In this document: one piece after another, positions 43,357 to 47,098 of the stretch
Layout of the letters: each line of letters begins with the position of its first letter
How positions within the stretch are numbered: the first letter of the stretch is position 1
Source: Nitrospira sp.
GTDB taxonomy: Bacteria; Nitrospirota; Nitrospiria; Nitrospirales; Nitrospiraceae
Direction: 5' to 3'
DNA: 64,000 nt
Assembly (NCBI GenBank): GCA_029194535.1
Contig: JARFXR010000001.1
Location: 2,054,721 to 2,118,720, forward strand
Position numbers and translations under genes: made by a program
Notes under the pieces: generated by a model
What the model was told of the DNA's origin: nothing
Database searches by the model: none
What the model saw: the letters and a program-made list of their open reading frames with translations, nothing else

Positions 43357-43632
43357 TCAACTGCCGGGAGGAACGACATTGGCCGCTTGTTCGATGGCGG
43401 CGAGAATCTTGGCCCGAGTCTCCGCGTCGAATTCGTGCCCGTAAAAACGAAGAAACACGCCTTTGCGGAGACCTTCGACTGTGGCATGCGGAGCTTGATT
43501 ACGTAGAGATGCTTCCACGAGTGCGCGTGCGGTATCGCGCATGGCGCAGCCCATCACGAGGCGCTCTTCGCCGCTTCGTTGCATGAGCATGGCCCGATAC
43601 CGCTCGTCGAAGGCCGGCGAGGTATCATTCAT
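43357..43632 (-). CDS. Partner protein of a nucleotidyltransferase
   Basis: This 91-residue helical protein (RYRAMLMQRSGEERLVMGCA, then RKGVFLRFYGHEFD) often follows a nucleotidyltransferase gene. Its ATG overlaps the stop of that gene by 4 nt. The pair looks like a toxin-antitoxin or small regulatory unit. Function unknown. Confidence 0.65.
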   Translation of the reverse strand: MNDTSPAFDERYRAMLMQRSGEERLVMGCAMRDTARALVEASLRNQAPHATVEGLRKGVFLRFYGHEFDAETRAKILAAIEQAANVVPPGS

Positions 43633-44195
43633 TGCCGGACCTCCCGATAGAGCGCTGCGAGTCCTAATCGTTCGGCCCAGCGGTTCAGATAGACGGTATC
43701 AAGTCCCTGAACCGACCTGAGGAGGTTTCTGACATCTTCCAACTGCATCTGCGAGCGACTCTCCTTGGCCCAATCCAATTTTGAGAGGATCAGATCCTCC
43801 GGCGCCACCATTGACACGCGTTGACCCGCAACGGTGACCTCACATCGTCGTTGGAATTCTTCACGATGATAGTCGCTGTGTTTTCGGACGACACAGTCGA
43901 TTTTGACCACCAAGGCATTGTGGATCATGTTGAACATCGACCGGTTCTCCACGGCCTGTCGCACCATCTCTCGATCGATGTAGTACTCGTCCTGAAAGCG
44001 ACTCACGACTCGGCCGACGTCCTCTTCAGACAACTCGACGACCAAGTCGATGTCGCGTGTCATCCGGGGTGTCGCGTAGTAGTTTGCCGCCATCGAACCG
44101 GTGACCATATACGGTATCCCCGCCGCGTCTAAGCGGGCCGTGACCGACTTCAAGACCTCGAGTTCATCACTCACAGCAGTGGCTGCCCATTTCAT
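43629..44195 (-). CDS. Nucleotidyltransferase (AbiEii/DUF6036-like)
   Basis: This 188-residue protein has the nucleotidyltransferase motif TGSMAANYY followed by RMTRDIDLVV and the later EDLILSKLDWAKES. The family includes AbiE-type toxins that modify tRNA or other RNA. It is translationally coupled to the small gene downstream. A role as a toxin is inferred from the family. Confidence 0.75.
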   Translation of the reverse strand: MKWAATAVSDELEVLKSVTARLDAAGIPYMVTGSMAANYYATPRMTRDIDLVVELSEEDVGRVVSRFQDEYYIDREMVRQAVENRSMFNMIHNALVVKIDCVVRKHSDYHREEFQRRCEVTVAGQRVSMVAPEDLILSKLDWAKESRSQMQLEDVRNLLRSVQGLDTVYLNRWAERLGLAALYREVRQ

Positions 44196-44292: not shown

Positions 44293-44679
44293 TCATCTGC
44301 TACGGTTTTGAGGCAGTCGATTCAACGGCGCGAACGGGGTATCAGGATTGTACCGATTGACCGGGTTTAAGGGATTGTCCGGGTGATACCGGTTCCCGGG
44401 ATTGAACGGGTTATCCGGCTGATAGCGGTTGATGGGATTGGCCGGATTGCCTGGATCGTAGATGTTCGTAGGATTGACGAAGCTCGTCGGATCGAAGGCG
44501 TTGGCCGGATTGAGCGGATTGTCCAGCGCGTAGATGTTCGCCGGATTGAAGATGTTGTAGTCCCGCTCGTAGCGGGCATCGAATCCCGGTTCGGCATCGG
44601 CAGTAGTCATGGTGCCGAGCAGCAACAGAGTCGCCATCGCGGCGGATGGCCATGGCACGACCCGCATAGTCGTGCTCAT
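44293..44679 (-). CDS. Secreted protein with NPxNPxNRY repeats
   Basis: This 128-residue protein has a signal peptide (AAMATLLLLGTMTTADA), after which almost the whole chain is tandem units such as NIYDPGNPANPINRYQPDNP and FNPGNRYHPDNPLNP. The Asn-Pro periodicity implies an extended or solenoid structure outside the cytoplasm. No family is known to me. Its ATG overlaps the stop of the VWA gene, so the two are made together. Confidence 0.7.
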   Translation of the reverse strand: MSTTMRVVPWPSAAMATLLLLGTMTTADAEPGFDARYERDYNIFNPANIYALDNPLNPANAFDPTSFVNPTNIYDPGNPANPINRYQPDNPFNPGNRYHPDNPLNPVNRYNPDTPFAPLNRLPQNRSR

Positions 44680-45305
44680 GACGGCCTCTGCTTAGTCTCG
44701 TCGCTCCGCCGATAGCGGGACGTCATGTCGGACAATCCTTGAAATGTTTCTGCCACCTCACGCTTGCTGAAGCACACTCGACCATTGCCCGCGATGCCGA
44801 GCGATTCGCCCGCGGCCCAGACGTCGTGATCGGCGCCGAGGTAGAGGAACCGCCACCCCTCCCCCTCACAGGCCTTGATCAAGTCGAAGATCTGAGTGCG
44901 TGTATAACTCTTCGAAGCGTTTTCCAAACCATCGGTCAGGATCACGCAGAGTTTCTTGGTATCGGCTGGTGCGTCGCGTTTCGCTGTTTCGAGGCTGTGT
45001 CCGATGGCATCGTAGAGCGGTGTGGTGTCCCTCGGCCGATAGGTTTCGACGTCCAGATCCCGGACGTGGGCCGCCGGGATGGACCGGTGCCGCACTTCGG
45101 TCTTGCTGGAATTGAAGAGCGTGAGCGTGACCTGCGTGTCCGCCGGCTCCTTTCGCAGTTCGGCGAGGTAACGGTTGAAGCCGGCGATCGTCGGCTCTTT
45201 GCACGACTGCATCGATCCGGTCTCATCGAGAATGAAGGTCACGTAGAGCGGTTGAGGTGTGCCCTCCGCGCGGGCGTTCCTTTGATCGTGCTGCTGGTTG
45301 TCCAT
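44676..45305 (-). CDS. VWA domain protein
   Basis: This 209-residue protein is a single von Willebrand A domain with metal-site residues in ILDETGSMQSC (a DxSxS variant), DTTPLYDAIG and LTDGLENASKS. Such proteins bind partner proteins in a Mg-dependent way. It has no signal peptide and is probably cytosolic. GAGGAGG precedes the ATG. It is coupled to the secreted repeat protein gene. Confidence 0.8.
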   Translation of the reverse strand: MDNQQHDQRNARAEGTPQPLYVTFILDETGSMQSCKEPTIAGFNRYLAELRKEPADTQVTLTLFNSSKTEVRHRSIPAAHVRDLDVETYRPRDTTPLYDAIGHSLETAKRDAPADTKKLCVILTDGLENASKSYTRTQIFDLIKACEGEGWRFLYLGADHDVWAAGESLGIAGNGRVCFSKREVAETFQGLSDMTSRYRRSDETKQRPS

Positions 45306-45388
45306 GGTGTCCCCTCCTCGTTAGGTTGTCCAACGGTGCCAGCATAGAGGAGGCCTGTGACAGGGAAGGTCACACCTTATCGCAAAAA

Positions 45389-45451
45389 GTGCTGAGTGCT
45401 GAGAGTTGAGTGCTGGGTTGAGGAGTGAGTCGAAAGTGCTGAGTGCCGAGT
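45389..45451. repeat. GTGCTGAGTGCTGAG low-complexity repeat
   Basis: Degenerate tandem units of GTGCTGAG/GAGTTGAG lie just after the WYL gene, with related stretches at 40127-40165, 43197-43250 and 46537-46563. It is non-coding. Confidence 0.6.
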
Positions 45452-46431
45452 CAGGAATGGAGGATTTTCTTTGCCTCGGAGGAAACTGCCTCGGCGAGCG
45501 ACTGAGGTCGGATTACCCGGACGCCGCTGCCGAAGCTGAGCACCCAGCCCACCAGTTCACGGCTATCGGCGACGGTGAGGGTCATCGTCATTCCGCCGTT
45601 CTTCAAGGGCGCGACCTTCTGGCTCGGGTGCCAGAGCCGGTCTTTGGCCCAGGCGGCTGTTGCCCTATCGAAGCGCAGCGTGACCGCGATCGGCCGCCCG
45701 CGCATCACGGTCAGCGCATTCTGGACAAAGGCTTCGAGATCGAAACCGAGGGGCATCTGGTACGGATGGTCCGTCAAGGTGACAACATGCATTCGCTCGA
45801 CCGCAAACATGCGAGGCTCTTTGCGCAGGTGGCAATAGCCCACGAGATACAGCCCGCCTGACGCGTACCAGAGCCGGTAGGGGTCGATCTCGCGGCGCGT
45901 CATGCGGAGCCTGGAGGCCGAATAGTAGCGCATTTGGACCGTGCGCTTTTTCGCGATGGCCTGTGTGAGTCGATCGATAGTCTCGCGATGGTGCTTGTAG
46001 GTCTTGTGTGGGCCGAGGCCGACGGCGAAGACGTTCTGGATCTGCTGCACATAGTCGAGCGATCCGGCCGGCAGCAGCCTGGAGGCCTTGACCATGGCCG
46101 ACTCCACCGCCGCTTGAATCTCGGTCCCGGCCAACGGTTTCAACAACGAACGGCTGATCACCAGCGCCATGAGCTCCGTCGGCGAAAAGGACAGGGCCGG
46201 TGCCTGGCGCACGCCATCCATCAGTCGCCAGCGGACACGGCCCTCCACCCGTTCGTTGACCACGGGGAAGCCTCCTGCTTCCAGCGCTTCGAGATCGCGT
46301 CTGATCGTCCGGATGTGCCGCGGATAGTCCGGAGGCAATCGTTGCGCGATGTCGTCGAGGGTGACACCGCGCGGTGATTCCAGCAGCCTGAGCAGTTGCC
46401 ATTGGCGGATGAGCTGATCGTTGCGCGGCAT
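45451..46431 (-). CDS. WYL-domain transcriptional regulator
   Basis: This 326-residue protein has an N-terminal HTH (RQWQLLRLLESPRGVTLDDI, then HIRTIRRDLEAL) and a WYL domain (EIDPYRLWYASGGLYLVGYC). A C-terminal WCX-like region follows (VGWVLSFGSGVRVIRP). These regulators sense nucleic acids or small ligands and often control defence or DNA-repair genes. The ATG at 46431 has GGAGA upstream. It is flanked on both sides by GTGCTGAG repeats, so its target is not evident. Confidence 0.85.
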   Translation of the reverse strand: MPRNDQLIRQWQLLRLLESPRGVTLDDIAQRLPPDYPRHIRTIRRDLEALEAGGFPVVNERVEGRVRWRLMDGVRQAPALSFSPTELMALVISRSLLKPLAGTEIQAAVESAMVKASRLLPAGSLDYVQQIQNVFAVGLGPHKTYKHHRETIDRLTQAIAKKRTVQMRYYSASRLRMTRREIDPYRLWYASGGLYLVGYCHLRKEPRMFAVERMHVVTLTDHPYQMPLGFDLEAFVQNALTVMRGRPIAVTLRFDRATAAWAKDRLWHPSQKVAPLKNGGMTMTLTVADSRELVGWVLSFGSGVRVIRPQSLAEAVSSEAKKILHS

Positions 46432-47098
46432 CTGGAATCTCTCCAAGTGAACAAGCGAATGAACCGGTTGGTGAGAGCGTGATCCAGTCCACAGTAGAAA
46501 TGCAATCATTCCAAAGATGGGGCTGACGGAAGCCGCAGTCCTGAGTGCTGGGTGCTGAGTTTGGCTCGGAAGTACTTCGAAGGCGGAGCGACCCATGCTC
46601 GTTCACTCCATTGAAGGGAGGCCTTGGCGTTTCACGACCATGACCGAACGAGCGAGGATCCACACGTCGAGCATCTTCCGTTCTCCTTCCCAATCCAACA
46701 GGGAATGGCAGGCCAGCACGCGACTTCTGCCGAGGCTCGGGCACCGTACTGCTGAGCTGAGGCGGTCGTGCTGCACGACGGCGAGGACTGTCTGCAGTTC
46801 CGTCCTGCGTAGCACAGGACGGAGCAAGTTCCGCAGCCGAGCTGAGGCGAAGCACTGTACGGTCGAACTGAGGCAGCGGTGCGTGCTGGTCTGCCATTCC
46901 CATAATCCCGCGGCTACGTCCCCCAGACTCCCAGGCAAACCAACCGCTGCTTACTGACAACAGTATCAAGAGATCCAGACGCTTGGATAAGACTCTCGCG
47001 ACGCCGATCTCTATAGTCTGCCGCATGGCATCGCAGCGGCGGTGCATCATCATTCGGATCGAGTTGACGCTCGATTCGCCATCAGAAGGAGGTCAGTC
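46432..47098. other. Gene-free interval with repetitive sequence
   Basis: No convincing gene is seen. The stretch holds GTGCTGAG units (46537-46563), GAGCTGAGGC/GAACTGAGGC repeats and a GTCCTG...CAGGAC hairpin between about 46750 and 46890, and probably the promoter for the gene at 47099. Confidence 0.5.

Follow-up and report, generated by a model that had tools for sequence, protein, structure and literature searches.

Among WYL-domain transcriptional regulators, the CapW-type and PafC/DriD-type proteins are those that we take to stand closest, alongside BrxR and PafBC, to the regulator examined here and, to our knowledge, the defence islands so far described with a WYL gene at their head code for enzymes that act inside the cell. 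The circumsporozoite protein of the malaria parasite is an Asn-Pro repeat surface protein. Control of defence islands has been described for BrxR-type WYL regulators (PMC9122601). The window analyzed here (a stretch of 64,000 nucleotides from a Nitrospira sp. contig) carries a WYL gene, a VWA gene and a gene for an exported Asn-Pro (NP) repeat protein, designated family A; a second exported repeat protein, family B, was found in relatives. The WYL regulators of Nitrospira share with the BrxR/CapW- and PafC/DriD-type proteins the HTH-WYL-WCX layout and the vicinity of defence genes, whereas an exported NP-repeat gene, present downstream in 30 of 48 hits, sets them apart. WYL-headed defence islands are known, and an exported repeat product in this slot was found neither in the literature nor in the family libraries searched; the literature searched made no mention of repeat proteins of this kind in Nitrospira and gave no report joining Nitrospira with the WYL domain. 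Family A and the circumsporozoite protein have Asn-Pro-rich tandem repeats in common, a resemblance only, as unit and length differ and no sequence match was found. Cytosolic VWA proteins that stand alone are known from phages and plasmids (phrog_7371), and the VWA protein of the window matches them over its whole length, phage copies reaching up to ~38% identity among the matches listed, but unlike these it is linked to a WYL gene and to an exported repeat protein. It also differs from MoxR-VWA chaperone pairs, no adjoining MoxR AAA+ gene being recognised among the ORFs around it or in the neighbour tables, of which a part was family-scanned.

The features of the locus are listed in Table 1. 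The sequence-only reading had described an exported repeat protein, which the hydrophobic leader and six NP units of the predicted product bear out, together with an overlapping VWA gene; both ORFs lie on the minus strand where that reading had placed them, the four shared nucleotides read ATGA (44676-44679), and the deduced VWA protein, with intact MIDAS-type residues, is predicted to be cytosolic, in agreement with that reading. The nucleotidyltransferase ORF behind the repeat gene reached a single Pfam cut-off, that of DUF2204, and with the adjoining ORF it forms a candidate MNT/AbiEii-style TA pair on the minus strand (43357-44195), for which PADLOC gave no match.

Table 1. Features of the locus in the window, followed by direct repeats of gene 3' ends at other loci
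Feature	Coordinates	Strand	Evidence or remark
Family A exported Asn-Pro repeat protein, 128 aa	44293..44679	(-)	ORF list, homologues, alignment, dN/dS
Family A leader, residues 1-29, signal-peptide-like, near-invariant Ala29 preceding mature start	44593..44679	(-)	
Six 12-residue NP units, residues 45-116 of family A protein	44332..44547	(-)	
VWA protein, cytosolic, 209 aa, DxTGS...T...TDG residues conserved	44676..45305	(-)	PF00092
WYL transcriptional regulator, HTH-WYL-WCX, conserved upstream partner	45451..46452	(-)	start may be 46431
Nucleotidyltransferase, DUF6036/DUF2204-like; neighbour outside the module	43629..44195	(-)	candidate TA-type cargo
91-aa ORF, downstream of repeat gene	43357-43632	(-)	4-nt overlap with nucleotidyltransferase ORF
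3'-end direct repeat, L158	4923-5037/5977-6091		115 bp, 96.5%
3'-end direct repeat, L069	7085-7329/8185-8428		245 bp, 95.5%
3'-end direct repeat, L052	5259-5312/5863-5916		54 bp, 96%
3'-end direct repeat, L049	2338-2383/3172-3217		46 bp, 95.7%
3'-end direct repeat, L159	6408-6459/7210-7261		52 bp, 79%

The family A protein of the window opens with a hydrophobic leader; its mature part begins with PGFDARYERDYNIF, continues through the six units and closes with a PFAPL end and a basic tail. It displays every feature of the family, namely the leader, an [EQ]RD[YF]NIF-type motif, the six NP units of 12 aa each and a PFxPL end. The units follow the consensus N-P-[IVA]-N-x-[YF]-x-P-[DN]-N-P-[LFA] and are visible in the DNA as a 36-bp period. 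Their Asn and Pro positions are near-invariant and the aromatic position is occupied by Y, F, L or V; of the NPxNPxNRY repeat proposed earlier, the Asn-Pro repeats were therefore retained, whereas NRY did not hold as a constant part, its Tyr often being Phe, Leu or Val. Ala29 is conserved in at least 90% of the alignment, and a crude script scored 34 of 35 leaders as AxA-like and 34 of 35 as hydrophobic, an export-type leader that suggests export. Across the unit block of 35 near-complete copies (the window and 34 others, a selected set chosen for readable frame) we observed zero indels, and all 35 aligned rows carry six units; short or partial copies also exist, such as one of 72 aa in genome G002. 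Purifying selection was evident from a median dN/dS of 0.146 among 34 sequences (251 of 561 pairs, those with 0.1<dS<1.5 being kept), with a median pS of 0.67 and a median pN of 0.17, and the refuting observation named by the sequence-only reading, poor conservation of the repeat frame in relatives, was not made, the frame being strongly conserved. Unit identity was higher at the same position across proteins (0.718) than among positions inside one protein (0.596), which indicates that the array is old and fixed. The six-unit architecture, the leader and the selection on the sequence were all directly established, and the alignments identify family A as a real gene family. A chance low-complexity ORF is ruled out by the absence of indels in the 35-row unit block together with the dN/dS of 0.15, and a variable-number tandem repeat is ruled out for the near-complete copies by the six units in 35/35 rows.

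Family A matches were obtained in 53 of 147 relatives (E 0.01, fragments included) and in 71 of 395 sampled genomes of the phylum (1e-5), six of them belonging to other families. A scan of 84,980 species genomes, which used two peptide patterns only and could therefore miss distant relatives, returned 63 family A loci, all in records named Nitrospira or Nitrospirae/-ota/-aceae/-ales except for two labelled 'uncultured Nitrosospira', whose isolate names (NOB/CMX) accompany what is probably a mislabelling. Ca. N. defluvii and N. moscoviensis are among the carriers of family A. Outside the family, the genes that precede the divergent A relatives (L160, L161) are TPR and unannotated ones, a different setting in which no WYL gene was seen. 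Many copies of both repeat families are broken or fragmentary; a broken family A copy also occurs in G000 (C1:1205722-1205871, L076). The family A protein of the window had no match in Pfam, NCBIfam, PADLOC (E 0.01) or PHROGs, in keeping with the earlier remark that its repeat pattern is foreign to known families. Against curated families and PDB sequences its best E-value was 0.11, a compositional match, and the Pfam matches to its relatives were all below cut-off; homology to plasmid-borne surface proteins of lactobacilli was likewise set aside as compositional. The AF2 model was not confidently folded (pLDDT 71, pTM 0.37) and found no PDB match with Foldseek up to E 10. In the fold comparisons of families A and B, a viral library gave no significant match.

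The WYL protein of the window exceeds the Pfam cut-offs for WYL (4.2e-21) and WCX (9.6e-18), with HTH_11 slightly below its own (9.6e-5), and this domain order of HTH, WYL and WCX corresponds to a BrxR-like layout. It matched the CRISPR-associated WYL models of PADLOC (3.9e-40), and in phmmer its residues 10-327 matched two full-length WYL regulators whose structures have been solved. When the positions of WYL orthologues (48 hits in 45 genomes) were compared with those of families A and B, the A or B gene in the 30 hits mentioned above was a same-strand neighbour no more than 10 kb downstream, within 500 nt in 11 and within 1.5 kb in 22, and these pairs span eight genus groups. None of the 48 hits had an A or B gene upstream, or downstream on the opposite strand. 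Assuming four equally likely and independent arrangements, this gene order has a p-value of 9e-19, which is a guide only because descent is shared and the counts are uncorrected for it. Among more distant WYL relatives an A or B neighbour was found for 1 of 26 hits (four short fragment rows excluded). The remaining 18 of the 48 hits have no A or B gene within 10 kb, several of them lying at contig ends, and many A and B genes have no WYL gene nearby. Gene order and strand are here observed directly, the arrangement of WYL and exported NP-repeat genes is almost certainly real, and the fixed partner of the repeat gene is the upstream WYL regulator, not the VWA protein.

Family B is an exported repeat protein of Nitrospirota, of the type LGNLSANPF...NPFGxGSPF..., which mostly follows the VWA gene where family A does not. 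It was detected in 31 of the 147 relatives and in 54 of the 395 genomes of the phylum, and a Cupriavidus megaplasmid carries a 38% relative. Like family A, it occupies the slot behind WYL or VWA and bears an export-type leader and Asn-Pro-aromatic repeats (NP[FY]); unlike family A, it has another repeat and a confidently predicted fold. Its AF2 model is a compact domain (pLDDT 91.9, pTM 0.79) without match in the PDB by fold (Foldseek) or by sequence, which leaves a new fold no more than possible. Profile comparison of the two families (hhalign) aligned 37 shared columns (90.8%, E 1.2e-6), a similarity that may reflect composition. In G000 an intact family B gene (C1:832217-832630, L167) has as neighbours an RNase H/AAA helicase gene and an ORF that looks HipA-like by eye. 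At five loci an ORF of 55-74 aa follows family B or the VWA gene (L175 4710-4907, L227 5705-5929, L171 4726-4893, L072 293-496, L073 6871-7092); FYDxKGQPAAPRGS was found in those of L175 and L227, and the ORF is a possible further small component.

VWA metal sites of the MIDAS type consist of the residues DxS/TxS, T and D. The protein of the window scored 27 bits against PF00092 (cut-off 23.8), and in the VWA alignment D27, S31, T95 and D125 are invariant, position 29 being T, S or A (A only in L066). A hydrophobic leader was absent by eye from the window protein, although a crude hydrophobicity filter let through 2 of the 8 VWA N-termini. From the pooled VWA set of 18 genomes, two fragments (G063, G354) and a distant match without A or B gene (G180) were dropped, leaving 15 (near-)full-length copies, and 13 of these have an A or B gene on the same strand at most 130 nt downstream, family A in three genomes (G000, G002, G298) and family B in ten. 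The two exceptions are G001, where the VWA gene is truncated, and G436, which retains WYL-VWA followed by two other short ORFs with hydrophobic starts; left out of this count, G076 carries a truncated VWA remnant directly before an intact family A gene. Since 13 of 15 copies precede A or B, this directly observed succession of VWA and NP-repeat genes is not an accident of the present genome. The partnership put forward by the sequence-only reading survives to the extent that the VWA gene nearly always precedes an A or B gene, but it is not the usual partner of family A, and a role as its core partner is ruled out by its presence in 10 of 147 relatives against 53 of 147 for family A. PADLOC gave no match to the VWA protein or to family B (E 0.01), the WYL protein being the one member of the group that matched. 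Its residues 19-200 match the phage protein family phrog_7371 (1.2e-42), and tblastn found relatives in 215 of 50,697 phage and 16 of 72,556 plasmid records, which suggests that the VWA gene is plausibly island cargo that became coupled. These phage relatives include phages with genomes above 380 kb.

To describe the surroundings, the 132 nearest non-core genes at 74 A/B loci were set against 78 genes at 40 random places on 20 contigs of the same genomes, two of these places overlapping. Type I methyltransferases of PADLOC amounted to 8 of 132 flanking genes versus 0 of 78 in the control (Fisher one-sided p 0.022). Pfam domains among the flanking genes included ResIII (7), PIN (3), VapB (3), BrxL (2) and SNF2 (2), none of which is in the top-25 list of the control, itself incomplete; the control set is a modest one and is not free of defence genes, as it contains BREX and further PADLOC matches, with PglZ and BrxC among the matches. 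Most genes flanking A or B are small or unannotated. Nine neighbours picked for their defence-like look were confirmed individually: Cas3g (L043, L049, L228), type IIG RM (L054, L082), BrxL (L179), a type III restriction enzyme (L183) and HmaA/DrmD-like helicases (L177, L180). The co-location of WYL with defence genes is partial, RM, Cas3g, BrxL and helicase genes being present at some of the loci. Recognition of TA modules relied mainly on visual inspection and clustering, with a home-made gene caller. This defence and TA neighbourhood was observed directly, and no phage context was recognised in the loci inspected. Direct repeats of the 3' ends of WYL, A or B genes flank inserted small genes (46-245 bp, 79-96.5%; Table 1), which possibly represents target duplication or homology-driven cassette insertion. 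Furthermore, five loci (L146, L147, L148, L149, L077) hold arrays of whole and partial family A copies with small, often TA-like, genes between them.

The reading that we prefer, as a tentative one still short of probable, is that in Nitrospira defence islands the locus forms a small module under WYL regulation, whose exported product would act in the envelope. The WYL protein would respond to phage infection or DNA damage by sensing a nucleotide or a nucleic acid, inducing stimuli suggested by analogy with BrxR and PafBC-type regulators, and would control a short downstream operon whose constant product would be the exported Asn-Pro repeat protein, family A in the window or family B. This product would exit the cytosol via the Sec route, and its site of action would be the periplasm or the cell surface, where its simplest role would be to shield the envelope or form a barrier while the intracellular systems of the island are engaged. 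Where present, the VWA protein might be a metal-dependent handling partner of the repeat precursor or of its regulator, and in the window its synthesis would be translationally coupled to that of the repeat protein through ATGA. We infer in this way WYL control of the operon, an envelope action of the repeat protein and handling of its precursor by VWA. In favour of this reading are the gene order behind WYL and VWA, the purifying selection on family A and its position-wise conserved units, the defence genes and type I methyltransferases beside A and B genes, the matches of the WYL protein to PADLOC models and to regulators of known structure, and the precedent of BrxR. Against it count the WYL hits without an A or B gene and the A and B genes without WYL, the different setting of L160 and L161, the modest control, G436 and G001, the unconfident AF2 model of family A and the many broken A and B copies, such as weakly constrained residents of an island would show. 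The stronger form of this reading, in which the module would be an extracytoplasmic arm of these islands, with WYL infection sensors inducing exported, fixed-length NP-repeat proteins of two families (one with a possibly new fold) that are loaded by a phage-type VWA and protect the envelope alongside intracellular RM, CRISPR and BREX, we regard as unlikely. A conserved exported product in the WYL slot, drawn from two repeat families without curated match, would indicate that bacterial immunity or the stress response has a component in the envelope, and the hosts are of interest because nitrite oxidisers matter in wastewater.

The main rival, a serious possibility with a little over one chance in three by our judgement, holds that an old WYL and NP-repeat pair merely resides at a hotspot, the locus being a landing site for TA, RM and VWA cargo while the repeat protein would serve an ordinary function in the envelope or in housekeeping and be linked to defence by position only; repetitive DNA and gene 3' ends may then serve as recombination sites. 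The 3'-end direct repeats around inserted genes, the family A arrays, the many fragments and the phage relatives of the VWA protein all agree with such insertion, but on its own it leaves unexplained why an exported NP-repeat gene of one of the two families comes immediately after 13 of 15 VWA genes and why the position behind WYL is strictly downstream on the same strand. Even if it holds, the locus marks a recurrent TA/RM insertion hotspot in Nitrospira. Alternatively, the product could be secreted in Nitrospira flocs as an adhesin or matrix protein, with an extended shape, a surface location, a richness in Asn, Pro and Tyr and WYL regulation in general stress, as its leader, its low-complexity repeats with spaced aromatics and weak matches of a compositional kind to lactobacillus cell-wall proteins and to amelogenin would suggest; we consider this quite improbable, since no anchor or sorting motif was seen in a small protein of fixed length, those matches are partial or fail the cut-offs and seem to reflect composition, and family B is predicted to be compact. 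That the small exported product, coupled in translation to a cytosolic partner and lying among TA modules, is a toxin- or bacteriocin-like agent with VWA as immunity or handling partner appears highly improbable, because in most cases the A and B genes have no VWA gene with them, the sequence is highly conserved rather than diversifying and no toxin family matched.

The Rfam search gave no match within the window, and a promoter scan around the operon returned no promoter-like and one terminator-like site, fewer than in shuffles. Between 36072 and 46560 of the window, sequence resembling GAGTGCTGAGT gave 11 one-mismatch matches against 1.16 expected, all on the plus strand, and these concentrate at 45387-45451, between the WYL and VWA genes.
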